A DNA stretch of 36,954 bases. Source: Fidelibacterota bacterium. Its GTDB lineage: Bacteria; Fidelibacterota; UBA8477; JABMPR01. Positions 4,248-24,864 of this stretch are shown here, piece after piece (the first letter of the stretch is position 1; every line of letters starts with the position of its first letter). The notes beneath the pieces are model-generated. The model did not search any database, was not told the origin of the DNA, and worked only from the letters and a program-made list of their open reading frames with translations. Position numbers and translations under genes: made by a program. The stretch spans positions 1 through 36,954 of the forward strand of contig JABMOS010000133.1 of NCBI GenBank assembly GCA_013203185.1, read 5' to 3'.

Positions 4248-5562
4248 GTGGGGAAACTATCTCATCCAATGAAGTTGCGATTTTGCCCTTAACATAAGTT
4301 TGCAGGGACTCAATACCAATTTCCTGAGTCACTTCCGCTGCAAAGGCCCTGGTGAGCATCAGTCTGGCATCTTTTTTATCAATTCCCCGGGACTGGAGAT
4401 AAAATAAGGCATCTGAATCCAGTTCACCCACTGTTGCCCCATGGGCACATTTCACATCGTCAGCAAAGATTTCCAGCTGAGGTTTTGCATCAACACGGGC
4501 ATCTCTAGAGAGAAGCAAGTTTTTATTCGATTGCTGAGCGTCCGTTTTCTGTGCATGCTCGCGTACCAGTACCAATCCGTTAAATACACCCCTGGAATGG
4601 CCATTTAATATGCCTCGAAAATGCTGATCACTACTACAATGGGGATGGGCATGATCAAGATAGGTTCTCACATCCAGATGTTGGTTATCATCACCCAGAT
4701 ATACACCCCTTAACACAGCCTCAGCACCGGGTCCAGAAAAGCTAACTTCCAGGTTGGAACGCGTAAGATTTGAGCCCAGAAGATACTGGTGGGATGTGAA
4801 GGATGCCGACGCACCTACTTTTACGGATGTATTGCAGACGTGCTGCGTCTCTGCGTTTTCAATACCAATTCTGTAGTACTCAAGACCAGCACCGTCTTCT
4901 AATTGAATATAATTTGCTGGTACTGTGATAACCGCTGAATCACCTGGTGATGCATATTGTTCGACAATTTTTAAGTGACTATTATTCTCCAGCCTGACAA
5001 CATTTACCGGGTTTGTAAATGAAGTTGCGCTGTGAGCTGTACTTATGTGGATGATGTGTATGGGGGTTTTGGACGCCGCATTCTTCTCCACATGAATGAA
5101 TAAGCCAGCTTGAGATAGCCCTAGAGAGATATGCTGGAAGATGTTATCATCTGTAAGGTTAGAATGGACAATGATGTCCTCCGCCATTTTTAGGGCAGGA
5201 CCCTTCAATTGGGTTAAATGGGTGATGCTCAATCCAGTATCATCAAGACTCAGTGGATCATCAGAATATTTCTCTGAATAATCACCATTGATAAAGATGA
5301 TGGTATGGCCAGTTGGTACTGCCTGCTTCAGGTTTGAAATAAAATCAATATCCAACTCTGATGCCGAATCCTTGCCAGGGCTGGAATCAAGTACTGGGCC
5401 TAGGGGAGTGTATCTCCATTCTTCATCTTTGCGTGTAGGAAAGATCCCTCCAGCCAATTTTGACAGGGAGGGAGACCTCACAGCCTCAGAGAAAGCGAAT
5501 GATGATTCTGTGTCAACCCGCTGATTAAGCCAATCTGAAAAATTATTTGTTAATTGAGCCAC
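4240..5562 (-). CDS. sufD: SufD, scaffold subunit of the SufBCD complex
   Basis: A 440-residue SufB/SufD-family protein with the right-handed beta-helix core and the conserved C-terminal part FADDVKCAHGATVGELD, followed by a FYLQSRGI helix. The histidine in KCAHG corresponds to the residue implicated in cluster formation in E. coli SufD (H360). SufD pairs with SufB on a SufC dimer. The start is GTG at 5562, supported by a GGGGA ribosome site seven bases upstream and a 14-base gap from sufC. It overlaps sufS by eight bases at its end. The N-terminal 120 residues are less conserved, as usual for SufD. Confidence 0.94.
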   Translation of the reverse strand: MAQLTNNFSDWLNQRVDTESSFAFSEAVRSPSLSKLAGGIFPTRKDEEWRYTPLGPVLDSSPGKDSASELDIDFISNLKQAVPTGHTIIFINGDYSEKYSDDPLSLDDTGLSITHLTQLKGPALKMAEDIIVHSNLTDDNIFQHISLGLSQAGLFIHVEKNAASKTPIHIIHISTAHSATSFTNPVNVVRLENNSHLKIVEQYASPGDSAVITVPANYIQLEDGAGLEYYRIGIENAETQHVCNTSVKVGASASFTSHQYLLGSNLTRSNLEVSFSGPGAEAVLRGVYLGDDNQHLDVRTYLDHAHPHCSSDQHFRGILNGHSRGVFNGLVLVREHAQKTDAQQSNKNLLLSRDARVDAKPQLEIFADDVKCAHGATVGELDSDALFYLQSRGIDKKDARLMLTRAFAAEVTQEIGIESLQTYVKGKIATSLDEIVSPRV

Positions 5563-5576
5563 AATGGATTCCCCGT

Positions 5577-6332
5577 TTATACTTTTTCAGAGTCTTCAAG
5601 TAACCAGTCATAGCCGCGTTCTTCCAACTCATAGGCCAATTCTTTGGTACCTGATTTGATAATCTGGCCATCTGAAAGCACATGGACGAAATCAGGAACG
5701 ATGTAATCCAGAAGACGCTGATAATGGGTAATGATTACAAAGGCATTCTCAGGAGTACGCAATTTATTGACACCCCCGGCCACGATGCGTAAAGCATCTA
5801 TGTCGAGCCCTGAATCAGTTTCATCCAGGATGGCCAGTGTGGGATTTAGTACTGCCATCTGTAATATTTCATTCCGCTTCTTCTCACCACCTGAAAATCC
5901 CTGATTCACTGGACGCTTGAGGAGATCCTCTTTCATCTCCACCAGGTTCATTTGCTTTTTGATGAGACTCAAGAAATCGATGGCATCCAATTCTTCTTCG
6001 CCACGATGCTTCCTGACTTCATTCAAAGCCTTCTTTAAAAAGGATGTATTATTAACTCCAGGAATCTCGATAGGGTATTGGAATGCGAGGAACATACCCT
6101 CGCGAGCGCGGATTTCTGGTGCCATTTCCAATAAATCGAGCCCCTTGTAATGGGCAGATCCAGCATCAACACGATATCCTTCACGACCAGACAGAACATG
6201 AGCAAGTGTGCTTTTGCCTGAACCATTGGGTCCCATGATGGCATGAATTTCACCTGCTTTGACCTCCAGGTTTAACCCTTTTAAGATTGGTTTTTCGTCT
6301 ACAGATACTTGTAAATTTTTGATGGATAACAT
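5577..6332 (-). CDS. sufC: SufC ATPase of the SufBCD complex
   Basis: A soluble ABC ATPase of 251 residues. Walker A is GPNGSGKST (34-42), the Q-loop lies in FLAFQYP, the signature is FSGGEKKR (146-153) and Walker B is LAILDE (166-171), followed by the SufC-typical [10 protein letters not shown]. SufC powers conformational change of the SufB-SufD scaffold during cluster assembly. It is the best conserved gene of the operon and starts with ATG at 6332 behind a strong GAGGGGAAATAA leader. The 105-base gap from sufB is the largest inside the operon and carries two short tandem repeats (listed separately). Confidence 0.97.
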
Positions 6333-6346
6333 TTATTTCCCCTCTC

Positions 6347-6370
6347 GCAGAGCCGCAAAGCCGCAAAGAA
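6347..6370. repeat. Short tandem repeat, 8-base unit, between sufC and sufB
   Basis: Units GCAGAGCC, GCAAAGCC and GCAAAG follow one another directly, giving about 2.75 copies of an 8-base motif. The stretch lies in the untranslated gap just upstream of the sufC start. It resembles GCAGAG/GCAAAG-type strings I recall from intergenic DNA of other environmental bacteria, but that is memory rather than a search. No function can be read from it. Confidence 0.55.
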
Positions 6371-6421
6371 TATTTTGTATTTTTATATCGTAAATCAATG
6401 GATCATTCCTCAAACTCATAA

Positions 6422-6442
6422 AACTCAATTAACTCAATTAAC
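6422..6442. repeat. Short tandem repeat, 9-base unit, overlapping the sufB stop
   Basis: AACTCAATT occurs twice in direct succession and then continues AAC; the same AACTC core is also visible just to the left. The sufB stop codon (6438-6440 on this strand) falls inside the second copy. It is 50 bases from the 8-base repeat in the same gap. Confidence 0.5.
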
Positions 6443-7910
6443 CCACAGAGCCTTCAAGACTCACAGACATCAAAGCCTGGGCTTCTACAGCAAATTCCAT
6501 GGGGAGTTGTTGAAAGACTTCCCTGGCATAGCCCGAGACAATCATACCCACAGCATCCTCGGTAGAAATTCCCCGCTGATTTAAATAAAATATTTGATCC
6601 TCTGATACTTTTGAGGTGGTGGCTTCGTGTTCGACCTGTGCGCTGGGGTTTTCAATCTCCAGATAGGGATACGTGTGAGCGCCACATTGATCACCGATAA
6701 GCAGGGAATCACATTGTGAGTAGTTACGAGCGTTTTCAGCCTTCTTATTCACTTTCACCAGACCTCGATAGGTATTGTTGCTTTTTCCTGCAGAAATACC
6801 CTTAGAAATAATGAGACTCCTTGTGTTCTTACCAAGGTGAATCATCTTGGTGCCTGTATCTGCTTGCTGGTAATTGTTGGTTAGGGCTACGGAATAAAAT
6901 TCACCTACAGACTTGTCCCCCTTTAAAACACAACTGGGATATTTCCAGGTAATGGCAGATCCTGTTTCAACCTGAGTCCATGAAATCTTAGAATTGTTAC
7001 CAGCGCAGAGTCCACGCTTGGTGACAAAATTAAAGATACCACCAACACCCTCTTTATTTCCAGCATACCAATTTTGAACTGTGGAATACTTTATTTCCGC
7101 ATCATCCAGAGCAATAAGTTCAACCACAGCTGCGTGTAATTGATTTTCATCACGCATGGGGGCAGTACACCCCTCGAGGTAACTTACATAGCTTCCTTTA
7201 TCTGCCACGATAAGGGTCCGTTCAAATTGACCAGTCTTGGATGCATTAATTCTGAAATAACTAGAAAGCTCCATGGGACAGCGAACACCAGGTGGGATAT
7301 AAACAAAACTTCCATCACTAAAAACGGCGGAATTCAAAGTTGCATAAAAATTATCTGTATAGGGGACCACAGTGCCCAGATATTTTTTCACCAACTCAGG
7401 ATGCTCCTGGATAGCTTCGCTAATGGGGCAAAAGATTATGCCCAACTCTCCAAGTTTACCTTTGAATGTGGTTGCAACAGAAACACTATCAATGACTGCA
7501 TCCACAGCAACACCAGCCAGCAATTCACGTTCCTCTAGCGGTACACCAAGCTTTTCAAAAGTGGCCAGCAACTCTGGATCCACTTCGTCTAAACTTTTTG
7601 GGGCTTCTTTTTTCGGAGCAGCATAATAGTATAGATCCTCATAGTCAACTTCTGAGTATTTCAGTTTAGGCCACTTCGGTTCTTTTTGTTTACGCCAATG
7701 GCGGTAGGCTTTCAGCCGCCATTCAGTCATAAATTCAGGCTCTTTCTTTTTGGCCGAGATCATGCGGACAATATTTTCGTCAAGGCCTTTTGGAAACGCT
7801 TCCATTTCAATGTCGGTGACGAAACCATATTTGTAGTCTTGATCTGTTATATTTTGAATGGTTTGCTGATCATCACTCATGGCGATATTTTTATCATTAT
7901 CTCGGGTCAT
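6438..7910 (-). CDS. sufB: SufB, scaffold subunit of the SufBCD complex
   Basis: SufB, about 490 residues, the usual length. The core contains [20 protein letters not shown], the long beta-helix, and the C-terminal [13 protein letters not shown] whose cysteine corresponds to E. coli SufB C405, followed by [24 protein letters not shown]. It is the main site where the nascent Fe-S cluster is built. The start is placed at ATG 7910 rather than the first in-frame ATG at 7931: the promoter at 7941-7968 predicts transcription from about 7934, leaving almost no leader for 7931, whereas 7910 has an AAAGAGA ribosome site seven bases upstream. ATG 7880 is a third option. First gene of the suf operon. 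Confidence 0.95.
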
Positions 7911-15800: not shown

Positions 15801-16823
15801 TTAACCTGGAAGGTCGCCTGGTGTCATGAGCAAGTCTTCCATGAGCTTGAGTTCTTTAATGCCAGATACCAAAATATCAGAATTCGCTTTAAAGTATTCC
15901 TTATCCAGCTTGCCCTCATAATCCATCTTTCTCAAGATGTATTTGATCGTATTTAAGCGTGCCAATTTCTTATTATCAGATCGAATAATTGTCCAGGGAG
16001 CAATGGTCCTGTTGGTTTCAGAGAGCATTTGAAATTTCTTTACTGAGTACTGATCCCAAAGGTTCTGGGCTTCCATGTCCACAGGAGAGATTTTGTACTG
16101 CTTGAGAGGATCTGTTTCTCTGGCTTTAAACCGAGCGAGTTGTTCTTGCTTGGAGACAGAAAAATAAAATTTAAATAATTTAATCCCATCTTTTACCAAC
16201 ATCTGCTCAAACAGGGGTACATCTTTAATGAAACGCTTGTTCTGTTCATCTGTGCAAAACCCCATAATAGGTTCAACCATGGCTCTGTTGTACCAACTTC
16301 GATCAAACAGGACAATTTCACCGCCAGCGGGAAGGTGTTGAATATATCTTTGGAAATACCATTGCATCTTTTCCACGTCACTGGGCTTTTCCAGTGCAAC
16401 CACCCGAGCGCCACGAGGATTGAGATGCTCCGTAATCCTTTTAATGGTACCGCCCTTACCTGCTGCATCTCGTCCTTCAAAAATCATGAGAACTCTAAGA
16501 TTTTGCTCTTTCACATGGTTTTGAAGTTTAAGGAGTTCAATTTGCAGCCGCTTGAGCTCAATCTCATAGTTCAGCGTTTTCTTTTTAACATAGACAGCTA
16601 CTCGGCCCTTGGAATCCTGAGCATCCTTATTTTTTGTAGCCGTTCCTTCGTGCAAATGAATCTTTTTTGGCTTGCGAGCTTTGACAGAAACAGACTTCGG
16701 ACCCACCTTGACAGCAGGATCATTTTTTGTTTCCACGGGAGCGGGATTGTTTGTGGTTGCTGGCTGAGTCGCAGGACTTTGCTTCCCTGGTGATGGTGTG
16801 GGGGCTGGTGTCTTTTTATCCAT
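15801..16823 (-). CDS. ppk2: PPK2-family polyphosphate kinase, downstream copy with long N-terminal tail
   Basis: A 340-residue PPK2 enzyme that transfers phosphate between polyphosphate and nucleotides. The kinase domain starts near residue 85: Walker A is EGRDAAGKGGTIKR (116-129), and Walker B with the catalytic RSWYNRA stretch is VLFDRSWYNRA (171-181). A lid region (ARFKARETDPLKQYK) and IAPWTIIRSDNK follow. It looks like a single-domain class I PPK2 (polyphosphate plus NDP to NTP). Residues 1-80 are rich in Pro, Thr, Lys and Ala and look disordered, unusual for the family. It lies 17 bases after a second PPK2 gene, with which it shares the C-terminal motif VSG-x-x-ELK-x-ME. Substrate preference cannot be read from sequence. 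Confidence 0.92.
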   Translation of the reverse strand: MDKKTPAPTPSPGKQSPATQPATTNNPAPVETKNDPAVKVGPKSVSVKARKPKKIHLHEGTATKNKDAQDSKGRVAVYVKKKTLNYEIELKRLQIELLKLQNHVKEQNLRVLMIFEGRDAAGKGGTIKRITEHLNPRGARVVALEKPSDVEKMQWYFQRYIQHLPAGGEIVLFDRSWYNRAMVEPIMGFCTDEQNKRFIKDVPLFEQMLVKDGIKLFKFYFSVSKQEQLARFKARETDPLKQYKISPVDMEAQNLWDQYSVKKFQMLSETNRTIAPWTIIRSDNKKLARLNTIKYILRKMDYEGKLDKEYFKANSDILVSGIKELKLMEDLLMTPGDLPG

Positions 16824-16840: not shown

Positions 16841-17815
16841 TTAGCCAATAAATCGACCATGTTTGCGCCGTTGGCGCTCCATTATTTTCAATTCACGCTT
16901 TCCAGAAATCACTACCTCATCATTGGGCTTAAAATTCAAGCTTCTGCTTCTTCCACGATAGGGGATTGAGCTCAGTATCAATTTCATGGTTTCCAATCTG
17001 GCTGAATGCTTGCTGTCAGAGCGAATAATATACCAGGGAGCTTCTTTGGAATTGGTCTTTTGAAGCAATTTAAATTTTTTTGCAGAAAACTCATCCCAAA
17101 GTTCCTGGGCTTGAAGATCAACCTCACTCAATTTCCACTGACGCAGTGGATCATTCATGCGTCTCTCAAAGCGTCTATTCTGTTCCTCCTTAGAAACAGA
17201 AAAATAGAGCTTGAGCAATATGGTTTGTGAATCGCTGATAAAGTTCTTCTCATATGAATTCACAGTGTTTAGAAATTCACGATATTCTTTATCTGTACAA
17301 AACCCCATGACAGGTTCAACCAGAGCCCGGTTATACCAGCTTCGATCAAAAAGGACCATTTCACCGACAGAGGGGAATCGCTCAATGTAGCGCTTGAAAT
17401 GAAGTTCTGTTTGCTGGCGTGGTGAAGGTTTCCCCGGTACTTCAACACGATAGCGTTTCTCATTCATATAGCGGGTAAGGCGCCGAATTGTGCCCCCTTT
17501 GCCTGATGCATCTCGGCCATCAAAAAGGATAATCATTTTCTTACCGCTTAGTTCAAGATGTTGCTGCATCTTGATCAATTCTGCCTGATAGGGCTTCAAT
17601 TCTTCATTTTGTTGATATTTCCCCAGGGCCGCATTAATAATGCGATCTTTTTGTTTCTTCTTGAGAACGTCCTTGATCTCATCCATACCTGCTTTTCCAT
17701 CGGAGTGATCAATTTTTCTCTCGGCTTTGCTGATAACCGATCTGATTATATGTTGGGGTTTGGGGTCAGAAACTATGGGCTGTTCTTCTTGCTCAATATT
17801 TTCTTCTTGTGACAT
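16841..17815 (-). CDS. ppk2: PPK2-family polyphosphate kinase, upstream copy
   Basis: A 324-residue PPK2 enzyme and clear paralogue of the next gene. Walker A is DGRDASGKGGTIRR (99-112) and Walker B/catalytic segment VLFDRSWYNRA (154-164). The lid (RRFERRMNDPLRQWK) and APWYIIRSDSK follow in the same order. The N-terminal 70 residues are acidic then lysine-rich, unlike the Pro/Thr/Lys tail of its partner. The C-terminus repeats the ISGKRELKIME motif and then becomes basic. It starts at ATG 17815 with a good GGAG site seven bases upstream (GGAGAGAAGGA). With 17 bases to the second gene the two are almost certainly co-transcribed and might form mixed oligomers. Confidence 0.93.
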   Translation of the reverse strand: MSQEENIEQEEQPIVSDPKPQHIIRSVISKAERKIDHSDGKAGMDEIKDVLKKKQKDRIINAALGKYQQNEELKPYQAELIKMQQHLELSGKKMIILFDGRDASGKGGTIRRLTRYMNEKRYRVEVPGKPSPRQQTELHFKRYIERFPSVGEMVLFDRSWYNRALVEPVMGFCTDKEYREFLNTVNSYEKNFISDSQTILLKLYFSVSKEEQNRRFERRMNDPLRQWKLSEVDLQAQELWDEFSAKKFKLLQKTNSKEAPWYIIRSDSKHSARLETMKLILSSIPYRGRSRSLNFKPNDEVVISGKRELKIMERQRRKHGRFIG

Positions 17816-18053: not shown

Positions 18054-18839
18054 CTAATTGAATTCGTCGAACAGGACTTTATAAGTCACATAAGAGATAT
18101 TCTTCATTTCAACGCCAGGGGGTAGCGTGACTTCCACTCTAAACAGAGCCGATTCTCCAGTTGAGAGCGAGCTTTCACTGATAACTCCTGAATAAAATGA
18201 ATAGGGCTCACCACTAATGTAGGAGGAGTCCTGGGCAATGATAGTGGTTCGTTTGTCATGGAGGCGGTAGCGAACTCTCACAAAATCTGCCCGACGCAAT
18301 CCTTGGTTGATAACCTGCCCAATGAAGACGCGACTATCCGTATGGCGCTGATCCTCAAATTCACCTTTCAAGACAACATCAGCATGAAGCCGATCAAACG
18401 GTTTAAGTTCCTTAATATTTTCCTGAACAATGGAGAGGGTCCCGATATTGGTCTGAACGATGATCTTATCCATATCCTCGGTAATAATTTTGCCTTGTAC
18501 CACCGTTCCATTTTTTAAGGTGATCTCGCTGATATTTTCAGGAAAATTGACAAGTCGCTTGATCTCTTTGCGAATCCTGGGTGCGCTTAAGTCATCATAC
18601 TCACGCAGTTGAATACGCATACGATCCATATCATTCTGGATTTGATTTACTTCTCTGCGGAGTTCCATGACAAGACTATCGGAGCCTTGAACTCTCACAC
18701 TGGGTTGAAAAAACTCACGTTTGTTTGATCCCTCGCTGGTACCCGTTGTTTTCTTTTTCTTCTGGGAAAAGCCCACCAGGGGTATTAAAACAATTATCAT
18801 GAGTAACAGGATTTTGGAGGGACGTAGATGTACAGTCAT
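18054..18839 (-). CDS. Exported protein with FxLYD-like domain, function unknown
   Basis: A 261-residue exported protein. Residues 1-25 are a signal peptide (hydrophobic ILLLMIIVLIPLVGF, likely cut before QKKKK). A lysine-rich stretch and a heptad-like segment (residues about 55-85) follow. The segment EITLKNGTVVQGKIITEDMDKI resembles small Sm-like barrels that read NGxxxxGKI. The last 110 residues (VFIGQVINQGLRRADFVRVRYRLHD onward, ending in a beta-rich part) resemble an FxLYD domain. I do not recognise the whole protein. The ATG overlaps the upstream lipoprotein stop by one base (TAATG), so the two are probably made together and may act together in the periplasm. No terminator with a T-run is visible after it. 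Confidence 0.72.
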   Translation of the reverse strand: MTVHLRPSKILLLMIIVLIPLVGFSQKKKKTTGTSEGSNKREFFQPSVRVQGSDSLVMELRREVNQIQNDMDRMRIQLREYDDLSAPRIRKEIKRLVNFPENISEITLKNGTVVQGKIITEDMDKIIVQTNIGTLSIVQENIKELKPFDRLHADVVLKGEFEDQRHTDSRVFIGQVINQGLRRADFVRVRYRLHDKRTTIIAQDSSYISGEPYSFYSGVISESSLSTGESALFRVEVTLPPGVEMKNISYVTYKVLFDEFN

Positions 18840-19942
18840 TATTCACGCTCCCATTTGCTTTGGGTTATGCGAGCAACATGCTGCAATTTTTGTTGAAGTT
18901 CAGGATCATCGATGGATGCGACTAAATCCTTAATATCATTATAAAAAATGAAATTATCAGGATTGTCCAAAATATCAATCAACTGGTTTGTGATCACAGG
19001 ATCCTTATAGGCTGAGAGGGAAGTAATTGCTCTCTTACGAAAGCGACTTGGCATCTGATCATCACGTGCCACCTTCACCAGCGCCATTTTTAACTCTGGG
19101 TCATCAAAATTACCCAGTGAGGTTGTGATGGCATCCAGCATCCCATAATAGGTTGCCTGCTCATTGTGCAGAGCATCGATCATGCTTGAGAGGAGCCGTT
19201 CATCCTTCATCTCATCCATAAGGGAGATGGCATAAGTCTTAACCTCGTTCTGAGTGGCAGGATTGCTCAGCATTTCAGCCATAAGACGTGCAACGGCAGG
19301 ATCGTTTTTCGTAGCCAGAATCTCCACGGCTAGATTCCTGATTGAAATATCAATTTTTCTGTTTTTGGCAATGGACATAAGAATGGGTACTACCCGGGCA
19401 TCGTCCATTTTTCCCAGAGTAAGGGTCAGGTTCTGTAGAAAGGAAGCATAGTCTTCAGTAGCATCCGCATATAATTTTAATATGAGGGCAACAGAGCGTG
19501 CATCTACCTGATCTTCAATGATGGTAAACATTTCATCCCGAACTGTAACATAGCCAGACCGGCTCGCGGCCATGGCCTGGAGAACAGTTTTTATATTTTC
19601 CGCATCTTTGGTTTTGCCAAGAGCTTGAACTCCTGTCTGAAAGAGGGTGTAGTCAAGATCGCTACCATCCTTGAGGGAATTCCTGATGGCCTGAAGCCCC
19701 ACTGGATCATTGGATTCAATCACCTTTAGCATGGCTTCTTTGCGAAGCTCTATAGGCAGGGAAGTATCCCTGTAGAAGCTAATTAGATTATTTAAGGCTT
19801 TTTTATTTCCATCTCTATAATCGCTATAAGCTTCATCAATTCCAGCTTTGGTGGTTTCCTTGTTGGAGCTACAATTGGTCAAAGACCCAATAGTCAGTCC
19901 AAGTAAGATGATCAAAAGTACTTGTTTGCTTAAATGCTTCAT
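18839..19942 (-). CDS. HEAT-repeat lipoprotein, function unknown
   Basis: A 367-residue lipoprotein. From ATG 19942 the product begins with a signal sequence (MKHLSKQVLLIILLGLTIG) and a lipobox ending LTNC, with lipidated C24. The rest is a run of helical pairs of the HEAT type; recurring pieces are LRKEAMLKVIESNDPVGL, IRNLAVEILATKNDPAV and FRKRAITSLSAYKDPVI, with D/N-DP-x-x at the repeat turns. HEAT solenoids bind other proteins, so a periplasmic scaffold is the likely role. A GGA motif seven bases before 19942 supports this start over ATG 19954. Lies 74 bases after lpxH and overlaps the following exported protein by one base. Confidence 0.78.
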   Translation of the reverse strand: MKHLSKQVLLIILLGLTIGSLTNCSSNKETTKAGIDEAYSDYRDGNKKALNNLISFYRDTSLPIELRKEAMLKVIESNDPVGLQAIRNSLKDGSDLDYTLFQTGVQALGKTKDAENIKTVLQAMAASRSGYVTVRDEMFTIIEDQVDARSVALILKLYADATEDYASFLQNLTLTLGKMDDARVVPILMSIAKNRKIDISIRNLAVEILATKNDPAVARLMAEMLSNPATQNEVKTYAISLMDEMKDERLLSSMIDALHNEQATYYGMLDAITTSLGNFDDPELKMALVKVARDDQMPSRFRKRAITSLSAYKDPVITNQLIDILDNPDNFIFYNDIKDLVASIDDPELQQKLQHVARITQSKWERE

Positions 19943-20016
19943 GTTGAAATCCATCAATTTCTATTCAAAATATCGTGAAAAGTATCAATTCAGTTTATAG
20001 AAAATACAGGTTGAAG

Positions 20017-20787
20017 TCAAGGTAATTCCCTTTGTTCCAATTGCTTAACATGCCATTGTTTAAGTGATAGATTCACTCCATCAAAATAGCCATAGGTGAA
20101 ATAATTCAAGAAATCGCCAATGGTGAGAAAGGTCTTATTCTCGAACTTTTTCAATTTTGGATAGTGTACATGACCTGTAATGAAAAAATCCGCTCCTTCT
20201 GCAAATCTATCTTCTGCGAACGCATAGTTTTTACGTATTAGATTTAGTTGATCAATTGAAGTCTCTTTGCGATATTTTTTCCTGCTATTCCGAGATAGCC
20301 AGTTGGCGATCCAATGGGTGACATTGGGGTGAAGGAGCCACCTGAATGCCCAGATAAAGAGCGGGTGTTGAATAACACTTCGTAATCGATGATAGCCAAC
20401 ATCTTCTGGATCAAGACCATCCCCATGGTTGAAATAGAACTTCTTGTCAGCATACTCAATGGTGGCTGCCTTCGGGTAAATGTTTACACCAATAGTCTCA
20501 GATAAAAATGGACCTATCCAATAGTCATGATTGCCCCCGAAATAATGGATAGTAATCCCGGCGTCAATCAATTCCCTCATCTTTGAATAGACATCCAGAT
20601 AAGCCTGAGAGACTACATAGCCATATTCAAAATAGAAATCGAACCAATCCCCAACGATAAAAAGGGTGGCCTTTTCTGCTTTTACTTTGTCCAAAAGCAG
20701 GAATAGTTCTTTGCGGCGTTCTCGCTCCATGTCATCTATCTGGATGCGCAAATGCACATCTGAAAGGAAGTATGCTTTATTATTCAT
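20017..20787 (-). CDS. lpxH: UDP-2,3-diacylglucosamine hydrolase-like metallophosphoesterase (LpxH type)
   Basis: A 256-residue calcineurin-like phosphoesterase. All metal-binding blocks are present: D10-x-H12 (LSDVHL), GDWFDF with D47, GGNHDYW with N86 and H87, FNHGD with H121, and GHVHYP near 207-212. The GDWFDFY block and the basic helical region around residues 140-190 fit the LpxH/LpxH2 group, which cleaves UDP-diacylglucosamine to lipid X in lipid A synthesis at the inner membrane. No other lipid A gene is adjacent, so a related phosphoesterase role is possible. It heads a minus-strand group with the HEAT lipoprotein and the FxLYD-like protein, and is divergent from the large peptidase-barrel gene. 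Confidence 0.8.
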   Translation of the reverse strand: MNNKAYFLSDVHLRIQIDDMERERRKELFLLLDKVKAEKATLFIVGDWFDFYFEYGYVVSQAYLDVYSKMRELIDAGITIHYFGGNHDYWIGPFLSETIGVNIYPKAATIEYADKKFYFNHGDGLDPEDVGYHRLRSVIQHPLFIWAFRWLLHPNVTHWIANWLSRNSRKKYRKETSIDQLNLIRKNYAFAEDRFAEGADFFITGHVHYPKLKKFENKTFLTIGDFLNYFTYGYFDGVNLSLKQWHVKQLEQRELP

Positions 20788-20915: not shown

Positions 20916-20962
20916 GATCAGAATTATTGGAACCCAAAGGAGCTCTTGGCATACACCATTAT

Positions 20963-23900
20963 ATGAACAATACTAATTCTATAAAGAACATTCTGATTTT
21001 AGCTGTCATAGGCCTAATCGCCTTTGCCACTCCTGTGGAAGCAAAATACGGAAAAAATAAAGTGCAATATCGTGGGATGGACTGGTCATTTATCCAGACT
21101 CCTCATTTTGATGTCTACTTCTATGATGGGGGCGAATCAATTGCCTACTTCGCAGCGGATGTGGCTGAGAAATCTTACGAGCAGATATCTTATCAATTAG
21201 ACTGGCGGCTGAGCAAACGTATATCCATCCTGGTTTATAACTCCCACAATGATTTCCAGCAAACCAATGTGACTTTGGGCTATTTGCAGGAGGGGATAGG
21301 TGGCTTTACTGAATTATTTAAAAACCGGGTGGTCTTGCCCTTTGAGGGTAGTTATGAACAGTTCAGGCATGTTCTCCATCATGAGTTAACCCATGCCATG
21401 GTCAATGATCTCATCTTTGGTGGAAATGTACAATCCATTGTTTCCGGTAAAATGAGAGTGAACATCCCCTTGTGGTTGAGCGAGGGCTATGCTGAATATT
21501 CATCCCTGGACTGGGATTCCAGAGCCGATATGATTATTCGTGATGCGGCCATCAATGGTAGTCTGCCTCCCATACAATATCTGAATTACTATATGGCCTA
21601 TAAGGGTGGTCAAAGCGTGGTCCGGTATATTGGGGAAACTTTTGGTGTAGAGCGTATTGGAGAGATATTGCATGAAACACGACACTTTAAAGATGTTCCC
21701 AAGGCCATCGAGAATACGCTGCATCTGGATTTGGAGACCTTGACTGATAAGTGGCATTTTTCGGTGAGAAAAGACTATTGGCCAGATATTGAAGGCCGTA
21801 GCAACCTGGATGATGTTGGCCATCGGTTGACAGATCATACAAAAACCAGAAACTACTTTAATGTAAGCCCTGCTATTTCTCCCAATGGGGGCAAGGTCGC
21901 CTTCCTGTCAGATCGATCCGGCTATGCAGATATATACATTATGTCGTCTGATGATGGTCGACAGCTAACCAAAATTATTTCCGGGCAACGAACTGCTGAG
22001 CTGGAGGAGTTAAAATGGCTAAGTCCCGGTCTTTCCTGGGCTCCTGATAACAGGCACCTGGTATTCTCCGCCAAATCTGGTAATGAAGATGCTCTGATTT
22101 TCTTTGATACAGAGAAAGAAACGCGTCATAGCCATAAACTTGGCTTGGACGGGATTTTCACAGCTGCCTGGTCTCCTGATGGAAAAAATGTAGTGTTTTC
22201 AGGACTTAAGGATGGCGCCAGTGACCTGTTTCTCTATTCTATAAAAACCAAAGAGATTACACAACTCACTCGCGATTTATTTTCTGATACACGCCCAACC
22301 TGGTCACCGGATGGTAAGGAGTTGGCCTTTGTATCTGATCGTGGCAACTCACTGCTCACTGGGGTTGTATCCCAAGGCTCTGAGCAATCCCGCGACATCT
22401 TGCGAAATCACGATTTTCGCACCACCGATATTTATACCATGAATATAGAATCAGGCCAAATCACGCGTATCACAGATACACCAGGGAGTGAGGATTCACC
22501 AAGTTATGCCAATACAAGCCCTAAATTGGCCTATACCTCAGATCGCAGTGGGATATGGAATATTTACTTCTATGATTTCGAGACAGATATTGAAGTACCT
22601 GTTACAGATATCATGACTGGTATTTTTCAAATAAGTTGGAGCAAAGACGATTCCAGGCTCGTATTTGCCGGATATGAAAAGGGTGGTTGGGATATTTTTA
22701 CCATGAATAACCCCCTCGATGTAAAAAAACAGCTGAGTGCGCCATCATTTTCAAACTATTTAAAGCGCAAAAATCTTCAACTGGATCTGACATATACGGA
22801 TTCAATGCCAGTTCCAGAGCACAAGATTATCAACCCTTTTGAGACACATGTTTTTGCCTATGGCAATCAGTTTTCAGATTCAAAGGGAACAACTGAGGCT
22901 CCAGAACCAATCGTTTTGAACACCATGGATAGTAGCGGTGCTTATGCTGTGAATAAGTATAAGACCAGATTTACTGTAGACCTGGTGGATGCTCAGGCTG
23001 GATATTCAAACTTTTTCGGTGTCCAGGGCAACGCTCTCATGGTTTTTTCAGATATTATGGGTAATCATCAAATTCAGTTTGGTTTTGAGTTGTACCGTAA
23101 CCTGGATAATTCTGACCTCATGCTGGGATACCACTATTTACCCAACAGAGCCAATTTACACCTGATGTTGTATAATCTTCCTGACGACTATTTGAGTAGA
23201 ACCTTTGACAACTTTTTTGCACTATGGCATTTTAGAAAATACGGATCAGTCATTGGCATCGATTATCCATTCTCGAAATATTCTCGGTTTGAAACCAGTG
23301 TAAATTGGTTGAATATTTATCAGAGTATTTCTTACCTGGATATGACCTACCTGGATCGAGAGAAAGACGATTTCTCAATCAATCAAAGCTATGTACTACC
23401 AGAAGTGAAGCTGAGTTTTGATAATGTATTGTATGGTAGTCTTTATCCTGTCTCCGGATGGCGGATGGAAACCAGTTTTCGATTCTCCCCTGACATGCCA
23501 AACTCGTCACGCCAATTTGCAACCTTCAGAACAGATGTTCGAAGATATATCAAGGTCGCCAGAGAATACTCTTTTGCCCTGAGAGCTTCTGCAGCCAGTA
23601 GCTATGGCAAGACCCCTGAAACATTTATGGCAGGTGGAATTTCAAACTGGATCAACTACAGAATGGATAGTGCTTATCTGGATATTATATCAGATTATGA
23701 AGATCTCTACTTTTCTGAATACGTGGTGCCAGTTCGAGGCGTTCCCTATTTTGCATATACTGGTAATCATTACACAGCCTTCAATGCTGAATTTCGCTTC
23801 CCCTTTATTGAATATCTCTCAGTCAAGTGGCCAATTTCCATGGTTATTGGAAACGTCAGAGGAGAACTGTTCAGTGACTGGGTGAAAACCTGGAATGCTG

Positions 23901-24091
23901 AGCAAATAGAAGGTTTAAGTCTTCCTGAAATCCTTTTTAAGGGGCAAAATAACAGTTACTGGGGAACCGGCTTCGGAATGCGCATGAATCTGGGAATTTT
24001 TGTGCTGCGATATGATATGGCTTTTGATATGTCCGAAGAAACAATGTGGGCGTACCGACAGCATATCTGGTCCCTGGGTCTGGACTTTTAA
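20963..24091 (+). CDS. Exported peptidase-like / TolB-like propeller / Omp85-like barrel protein
   Basis: A 1042-residue envelope protein with three parts. A signal peptide covers residues 1-28 (NILILAVIGLIAFATPVEA). Residues about 30-285 are a peptidase-MA-like domain with zinc motif HELTH (140-144) and downstream LSEGYAEY giving E174, the expected third ligand. Residues about 295-595 hold WD40/PD40-type propeller blades as in TolB (SPNGGKVAFLSDRSG, WSPDGKNVVFSG, WSPDGKELAFVSDRG, WSKDDSRLVFAG). Residues about 665-1042 are beta strands whose end (FGMRMNLGIFVLRYDMAFDM) resembles Omp85/BamA barrels. The catalytic residues look intact, so it may be an active outer-membrane-tethered protease; the substrate is unknown. 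The ATG at 20963 is chosen because it starts the signal peptide; an upstream TTG at 20927 would sit within about five bases of the predicted transcript start. Its stop overlaps mlaE by one base. Confidence 0.85.
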   Translation: MNNTNSIKNILILAVIGLIAFATPVEAKYGKNKVQYRGMDWSFIQTPHFDVYFYDGGESIAYFAADVAEKSYEQISYQLDWRLSKRISILVYNSHNDFQQTNVTLGYLQEGIGGFTELFKNRVVLPFEGSYEQFRHVLHHELTHAMVNDLIFGGNVQSIVSGKMRVNIPLWLSEGYAEYSSLDWDSRADMIIRDAAINGSLPPIQYLNYYMAYKGGQSVVRYIGETFGVERIGEILHETRHFKDVPKAIENTLHLDLETLTDKWHFSVRKDYWPDIEGRSNLDDVGHRLTDHTKTRNYFNVSPAISPNGGKVAFLSDRSGYADIYIMSSDDGRQLTKIISGQRTAELEELKWLSPGLSWAPDNRHLVFSAKSGNEDALIFFDTEKETRHSHKLGLDGIFTAAWSPDGKNVVFSGLKDGASDLFLYSIKTKEITQLTRDLFSDTRPTWSPDGKELAFVSDRGNSLLTGVVSQGSEQSRDILRNHDFRTTDIYTMNIESGQITRITDTPGSEDSPSYANTSPKLAYTSDRSGIWNIYFYDFETDIEVPVTDIMTGIFQISWSKDDSRLVFAGYEKGGWDIFTMNNPLDVKKQLSAPSFSNYLKRKNLQLDLTYTDSMPVPEHKIINPFETHVFAYGNQFSDSKGTTEAPEPIVLNTMDSSGAYAVNKYKTRFTVDLVDAQAGYSNFFGVQGNALMVFSDIMGNHQIQFGFELYRNLDNSDLMLGYHYLPNRANLHLMLYNLPDDYLSRTFDNFFALWHFRKYGSVIGIDYPFSKYSRFETSVNWLNIYQSISYLDMTYLDREKDDFSINQSYVLPEVKLSFDNVLYGSLYPVSGWRMETSFRFSPDMPNSSRQFATFRTDVRRYIKVAREYSFALRASAASSYGKTPETFMAGGISNWINYRMDSAYLDIISDYEDLYFSEYVVPVRGVPYFAYTGNHYTAFNAEFRFPFIEYLSVKWPISMVIGNVRGELFSDWVKTWNAEQIEGLSLPEILFKGQNNSYWGTGFGMRMNLGIFVLRYDMAFDMSEETMWAYRQHIWSLGLDF

Positions 24092-24864
24092 TGCAAAAAC
24101 TAGTTCGGCTGCTAGGTCGTGAAACCATTGGTCTGATAGCCAACATTGGTGAGGTATTCATTCTCCTCGGTCAGGCTTTAAAAAATGTACGCTACTTCCA
24201 CCAGGACCGGGTTTTATATAACGAACAGCTCTATCGATTGGGAGTGAAGGCACTTCCCCTGGTAAGCATCATCGCTGTTTTTGCTGGTGCAGTGGCAGGA
24301 TGGCAGGGTGCCTATCAATTGGAAGATACACTCCCTCCAAGGTTTTTTGGGCAGATTGTGGCAGTAGGCATATTGTCTGAGATGGGACCTGTCTTAACGG
24401 CATTGGTATTAGCAGGAAGAAATGGCTCATCCATTGGAGCTGAGCTCGCTACCATGAAGGTTACCGAGCAGATTGATGCCCTGGAAGTTATGGCCATCGA
24501 TCCAATTCGACATCTCGTAGCACCACGTGTGGTCGCCATGATCATTATGATGCCCCTCTTGGTTGTGGTTGCTGATATTATTGCTCTGTTTACAGCCGCA
24601 ATAATAGGTGATGCCTTTTTTAATATCAGCATCCCCATGTTTTTCAACTCATTTCAATCAGTGTTTGTTTTTAGTGAGGATGTGATCCCTGGTCTGGCCA
24701 AAGCCCTGACCTTCGGAATCTCCATCGGCTTGATTAGTTGCTGGGTTGGTTTGAAAGCTACCCGGGGTGCCACTGGAGTAGGTAAAGCAGCCATTCAAGC
24801 ATTTGTTATTTCAGCCACTCTCATTCTGGTGAATGATTACGCGGTAGCAACCCTCGTTTTTTAA
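24091..24864 (+). CDS. mlaE: MlaE-family ABC transporter permease
   Basis: A 257-residue membrane protein of the MlaE/YrbE family, the permease of MCE-type lipid transporters. Hallmarks include PLVSIIAVFAGAVAGWQGAYQL, EMGPVLTALVLAGRNGSSIGAELATMKVTEQIDALEVMAIDP (the conserved cytoplasmic coupling loop with E-Q-I-D-A-L) and about five hydrophobic segments. ATG 24091 overlaps the stop of the barrel gene (TAATG), and the family N-terminus starts here; a longer frame from 24046 lies inside that gene. Neither the ATPase (MlaF) nor the MCE protein (MlaD) is in the window, which is unusual. The coupling to an outer-membrane protein suggests a link between lipid movement and that protein; this is inference. 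Confidence 0.92.
   Translation: MQKLVRLLGRETIGLIANIGEVFILLGQALKNVRYFHQDRVLYNEQLYRLGVKALPLVSIIAVFAGAVAGWQGAYQLEDTLPPRFFGQIVAVGILSEMGPVLTALVLAGRNGSSIGAELATMKVTEQIDALEVMAIDPIRHLVAPRVVAMIIMMPLLVVVADIIALFTAAIIGDAFFNISIPMFFNSFQSVFVFSEDVIPGLAKALTFGISIGLISCWVGLKATRGATGVGKAAIQAFVISATLILVNDYAVATLVF

Follow-up and report, generated by a model that had tools for sequence, protein, structure and literature searches.

A WD40-type Omp85 barrel protein with a predicted N-terminal metallopeptidase, found phylum-wide in Neomarinimicrobiota and in other phyla

In the window analysed here (the whole stretch of 36,954 nucleotides), one open reading frame encodes a 1042-residue protein that carries, in this order, a signal peptide, a metallopeptidase domain of the gluzincin type, a TolB-like propeller with about six blades, and an Omp85 β-barrel of 16 strands (Table 1). 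Members of the same family occur in nearly every sampled genome of four little-studied phyla, and we consider the assignment of the protein to this family near certain. Among described kinds, the WD40-Omp85 subfamily comes closest; going by the main text of the 2014 study that defined it (PMC4104836), the family has been catalogued in part. Our best guess at its function is outer-membrane quality control.

Table 1 Features of the gene, its product and the adjoining genes, in positions of the window
Feature	Positions	Strand	Residues or length	Basis and remarks
Peptidase, TolB-like propeller and Omp85 barrel gene	20963..24091	+	1042 aa	ORF, Pfam, AlphaFold2 model, homologues
Sec signal peptide	20963..21043	+	1-27	Ends ...TPVEA, no lipobox cysteine; cleavage site predicted
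Gluzincin-type metallopeptidase domain (Peptidase_MA_2)	21044..21817	+	28-285	PF13485, E 1e-9; domain model
HELTH, predicted zinc-binding/catalytic motif	21380..21394	+	140-144	H140, E141, H144 invariant
E174, predicted third zinc ligand, in PLWLSEGYAEY	21482..21484	+	174	Invariant with W171, G175; putative role, from gluzincins
TolB/PD40 β-propeller, about six blades	21839..22732	+	293-590	PD40, TIGR02800, fold matches
Low-confidence linker, probably disordered	22769..22915	+	603-651	pLDDT < 50
Omp85 16-strand β-barrel	22979..24076	+	673-1038	Strand list in model; PF01103; BamA by profile and fold
Loop 6, joining barrel strands 11 and 12	23606..23767	+	882-935	Longest connection; invariant R925-G926
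MlaE-type lipid ABC permease	24091..24864	+		PF02405, E 6e-69; ATG overlaps stop of barrel gene (TAATG)
LpxH-like UDP-2,3-diacylglucosamine diphosphatase	20017..20787	-		Divergent neighbour; stays linked in several families of the phylum

Three domains on one chain

The reading frame is open throughout, from an ATG at 20963 to a TAA stop at 24091; a TTG at 20927 offers an alternative start that would add 12 residues, and homologues align from the ATG. Three Pfam domains (Peptidase_MA_2, PD40 and Omp85) each score above their gathering thresholds, and the architecture is further backed by two AlphaFold models and by fold searches of the PDB. The full-length AlphaFold2 model, built from 23 sequences of six phyla (mean pLDDT 73.9, pTM 0.70, with low pLDDT in the linker and in parts of the barrel), retrieves TolB first and BamA next. 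NCBIfam also returns TolB-like and BamA-like matches, both below their equivalog cut-offs; the protein is therefore neither TolB nor BamA as such. A chance or chimeric reading frame, or an assembly artefact, is ruled out because full-length homologues with this domain order recur in hundreds of genomes across phyla. The signal peptide proposed in the initial annotation was borne out, the model placing a hydrophobic helix at residues 4-20. Scans for promoters and terminators gave results at chance level.

The Peptidase_MA_2 match spans residues 82-268 and contains the HExxH motif and downstream glutamate by which gluzincins are recognized. These residues (H140, E141, H144 and E174), which the initial annotation had singled out, are invariant in the 23-sequence, six-phylum alignment, and none of the 74 distinct homologues covering all four has lost any of them. 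Because this set persists while overall identity falls to about 25%, the sequences argue for a working enzyme, and the reading as a pseudoenzyme was rejected. A separate model of the domain (pLDDT 80.1) finds its best folds in the catalytic domains of clostridial M9 collagenases and M1 aminopeptidases, all of them gluzincins; the zincin fold is matched in 4ar9 (ColT) at E 1.9e-4 and in M1 aminopeptidases with TM up to ~0.6, and sequence profiles likewise indicate microbial collagenases. The initial annotation had suggested M48 (PF01435) as the family, and this did not hold: a Pfam scan of the protein gave no PF01435 match. Zinc binding and proteolysis are predicted for this domain of the Peptidase_MA_2 family.

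The propeller matches PD40 in five stretches (E 1.4e-28) and has ~23 strands in the AlphaFold2 model, which amounts to about six blades, as first described. It resembles TolB of the Tol-Pal system in both sequence and fold, TolB structures being its best matches in the PDB. Unlike TolB, it is joined to a barrel, the N-terminal domain of TolB is not seen, and its match to TIGR02800 (E 1.3e-45, 156 bits) does not reach the TolB equivalog cut-off of 343 bits.

The C-terminal region is an Omp85-class barrel with BamA-like features, the class originally put forward. PF01103 is matched over residues 761-1028 (E 1.6e-7, 31.6 bits against a curated cut-off of 24), and 16 strands can be counted between residues 673 and 1038 of the model. 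A profile of the barrel alone retrieves BamA chains (E ~1e-10), the BamA-like structure 9ccg (3e-13) and, weakly, TamA, and a fold search with the full model retrieves BamA at E ~6e-11. Between strands 11 and 12, R925-G926 (bases 23735-23740) does not vary among the 23 aligned sequences of six phyla, nor do its partner positions, E943 in strand 12 and D972 in strand 13. The R925-G926 pair, which we take to be the Omp85 loop-6 RG motif, aligns with the RG of 9ccg and with that of a TamA-like protein of the same genome. Pfam detects no POTRA domain in the 1042-residue protein, which excludes membership of the BamA, TamA or FhaC groups but not of the Omp85 superfamily, since the main text of PMC4104836 includes subfamilies that lack POTRA.

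These features bear on the side of the membrane at which the protein would act. We expect the propeller and peptidase on the periplasmic side rather than at the cell surface, because the segment before strand 1 is periplasmic in the 16-strand Omp85 topology and because the loop-6 RG motif sits between strands 11 and 12. Surface proteolysis or secretion, which the initial annotation had entertained, would have the barrel export the peptidase and propeller, as in two-partner or type Vd models, and the layout of an N-terminal passenger followed by a barrel does resemble one once proposed for PlpD. That export model was contradicted by experiment (PMC11116518), which for this related layout gave the periplasmic location that we predict here; moreover, an even number of strands, with short turns on one side and loop 6 on the other, should keep the segment before strand 1 periplasmic, and a folded propeller of ~300 residues would not pass the barrel. 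We regard a surface protease as very improbable.

Distribution, descent and genomic setting

Matches were found in 147 of 149 genomes of Neomarinimicrobiota, the phylum of the window (92 of the 94 high-quality genomes and all 70 genera), in all 60 Zixibacteria genomes, usually as two paralogues each, in 39 of 40 from Calditrichota, in 79 of 81 from Gemmatimonadota, and in 51 of 119 from Acidobacteriota. Full-length homologues are present in these five phyla and in Eisenbacteria, the phyla being named as in the titles of the sequence records. The architecture, initially called unusual, is thus not rare and instead represents the standard form of a phylum-wide family. In a tree of 53 proteins, a Neomarinimicrobiota clade (support 97) stands beside Calditrichota, followed by Zixibacteria and then Eisenbacteria, and at least two older paralogue groups are apparent; mainly vertical descent is the simplest reading. 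A set of 14 control genomes that includes E. coli and a Bacteroides yields no Peptidase_MA_2 match, and this absence may explain why the family has escaped study.

More remote relatives were also encountered. A second, more distant set of paralogues of ~1000 residues has HEFxH, a propeller and a barrel-like C-terminus; most of these give no match to the Omp85 barrel profile, and their barrel may be of another type. On plasmid pSR116 of Salinibacter ruber (4920-6821), a 634-residue relative annotated as "basic secretory protein-like protein" comprises a peptidase and a propeller with no barrel recognized. The next open reading frame likewise gives no barrel-profile match, and a separately encoded barrel at that position was rejected.

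The genome from which the window derives also has a canonical BamA of its own, which shows four POTRA stretches and is encoded on another contig beside Skp and LpxC/FabZ, and a TamA-like Omp85 protein adjoining TamB. Replacement of BamA or TAM is ruled out in this genome by the presence of both, and the protein is thus an addition to them. No M48 match was found anywhere in this genome, which is 82% complete. In eight streamlined genomes, 0.8-1.0 Mb in size and 89-98% complete, all from a single genus, the Omp85 matches consist of a BamA-sized protein and this family, a family member being counted if found by either search. No TamA-like match of 600-650 residues is listed for these eight genomes, and seven of them have no M48 protease. 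Retention of the family under genome reduction suggests a core role.

Immediately downstream, the start codon of the MlaE-type permease gene overlaps the stop codon of the barrel gene, and translation of the two is therefore probably coupled. No MlaF or MlaD was recognized among the scanned open reading frames of the window. The overlap with MlaE and the divergent LpxH-like gene would suit a role in lipids just as well: the barrel might thin the membrane or join an MlaE-linked lipid route, and the peptidase might regulate that machinery, for instance through maturation or turnover of LptD, the best-known substrate of BepA (PMC8423444). The order of these genes is kept in several families of the phylum. 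MlaE is adjacent, however, only in families f1, f2, f4 and f8 of Neomarinimicrobiota, and not in f3, f9, f10 or f11 or in other phyla, and the protein has no lipid-binding domain. Lipid or LPS homeostasis is in our estimation an improbable explanation.

No gene neighborhood conserved across phyla was found. Several families of the phylum do keep two further minus-strand genes beside LpxH, one for a HEAT-repeat protein with a lipoprotein-like N-terminus (18839-19957) and one for a 261-residue protein with no Pfam match (18054-18839). Farther along the same strand lie tandem PPK2 polyphosphate kinase genes (15801-16823 and 16841-17815) of clearly different sequence. On one Eisenbacteria contig, an isolated case, an RseP-like M50/PDZ gene (983-2329) runs into the beginning of the homologue's reading frame; the position after an RseP-like gene is taken by bamA in many bacteria.

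Known relatives and a candidate role in outer-membrane quality control

Heinz and Lithgow (PMC4104836) placed WD40-Omp85 among the subfamilies of the Omp85/TpsB superfamily and compared it with a fusion of BamA and BamB. The protein studied here shares with that subfamily, as presented in the main text, an Omp85 barrel, an N-terminal TolB-like propeller and the lack of any POTRA found. That text mentions the propeller only; the peptidase, its catalytic residues and the phylum-wide occurrence are not described there. The kind is thus already known, and the new part is the peptidase in front of the propeller, though this may appear in the supplements of the 2014 paper. Our literature search, which for the 2014 study covered the main text, found no paper with the exact architecture or reporting the peptidase. 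The WD40 and related Omp85 subfamilies were still not well characterized in 2024 (PMC11116518), and we found no experiments on any member of the family in the literature.

A second subfamily in PMC4104836, "Metallo", is likewise described in the main text as an Omp85 barrel with an N-terminal metalloprotease, defined there by PF00149. In Pfam, PF00149 is Metallophos, the calcineurin-like phosphoesterase, which suggests that the published "metalloprotease" label is mistaken and looks to have rested on a phosphoesterase accession. The peptidase of our family is instead PF13485, and PF00149 was not found in the protein.

Two experimentally studied systems provide points of comparison. The patatin-Omp85 proteins PlpD and FplA also place a catalytic domain N-terminal to an Omp85 barrel, and in PlpD this domain is periplasmic by experiment (PMC11116518); they differ in that the enzyme is a patatin lipase rather than a peptidase, one POTRA is present, and there is no propeller. 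In E. coli, a BamA-type barrel, a propeller and a zinc metallopeptidase act at one site, as BAM, BamB and BepA. The propeller BamB binds BamA (PMC13067283), and BepA targets substrates that are being assembled on BAM (PMC8423444; PMC13067283) at the BamA seam, where it promotes or degrades LptD (PMC8423444). There the parts are separate proteins, BamA has POTRAs, and BepA belongs to M48.

The most economical reading is that one chain combines the jobs of BamA, BamB and BepA as a periplasm-facing factor for assembly and quality control, a reading to which we give an even chance. In this scheme, a POTRA-less WD40-type Omp85 barrel of 16 strands would be seated in the outer membrane, with the propeller, which is TolB/BamB-like, and the zinc-dependent gluzincin peptidase hanging into the periplasm by a flexible linker. 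The propeller, or an exposed edge strand, would take outer-membrane polypeptides that are immature or have stalled, at the seam of the barrel. The barrel itself would aid their insertion or thin the membrane, and the tethered peptidase would cleave those that stall. The protein would work alongside canonical BAM and would not replace it. Against such a role, the protein lacks POTRA, the usual substrate-handling part, its peptidase family differs from that of BepA, and its neighbors are not conserved across phyla.

The main rival is an enzyme on a barrel anchor, modeled on PlpD. Under it, the barrel would serve as an anchor or dimer platform with no insertase activity, and the peptidase would process or turn over periplasmic or membrane-associated proteins selected by the propeller. 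An Omp85 barrel does not have to act as an insertase, since PlpD, an Omp85 protein with an enzymatic N-terminal domain, has not been shown to assemble proteins; that domain is periplasmic, PlpD dimerizes, and its deletion alters lipid levels (PMC11116518). The absence of POTRA is consistent with an anchor, and the Salinibacter relative suggests that the soluble part may act alone. Yet the invariant loop-6 RG and its partner positions represent more constraint than a passive anchor would seem to need, and all other characterized Omp85 proteins assemble or translocate proteins (PMC11116518). We hold this explanation to be rather unlikely.

A more far-reaching form of the assembly and quality-control reading can be only tentatively advanced. 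The family may constitute a second core machine of outer-membrane biogenesis in whole phyla (Neomarinimicrobiota, Zixibacteria, Calditrichota, Gemmatimonadota and part of Acidobacteriota), a single-chain insertase, propeller and protease that is kept with BamA even when TAM and M48 are lost and that may be essential.

Protein assembly or translocation is the task of every characterized Omp85 protein apart from PlpD; the WD40 subfamily still awaited characterization in 2024 (PMC11116518). The N-terminus of the WD40-Omp85 type is most likely an intact, conserved metallopeptidase. In several phyla the family is part of the core set of envelope genes, and it is retained next to BamA in genomes that have shrunk below about 1 Mb. 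It provides a defined, testable candidate for quality control of the outer membrane in these phyla.
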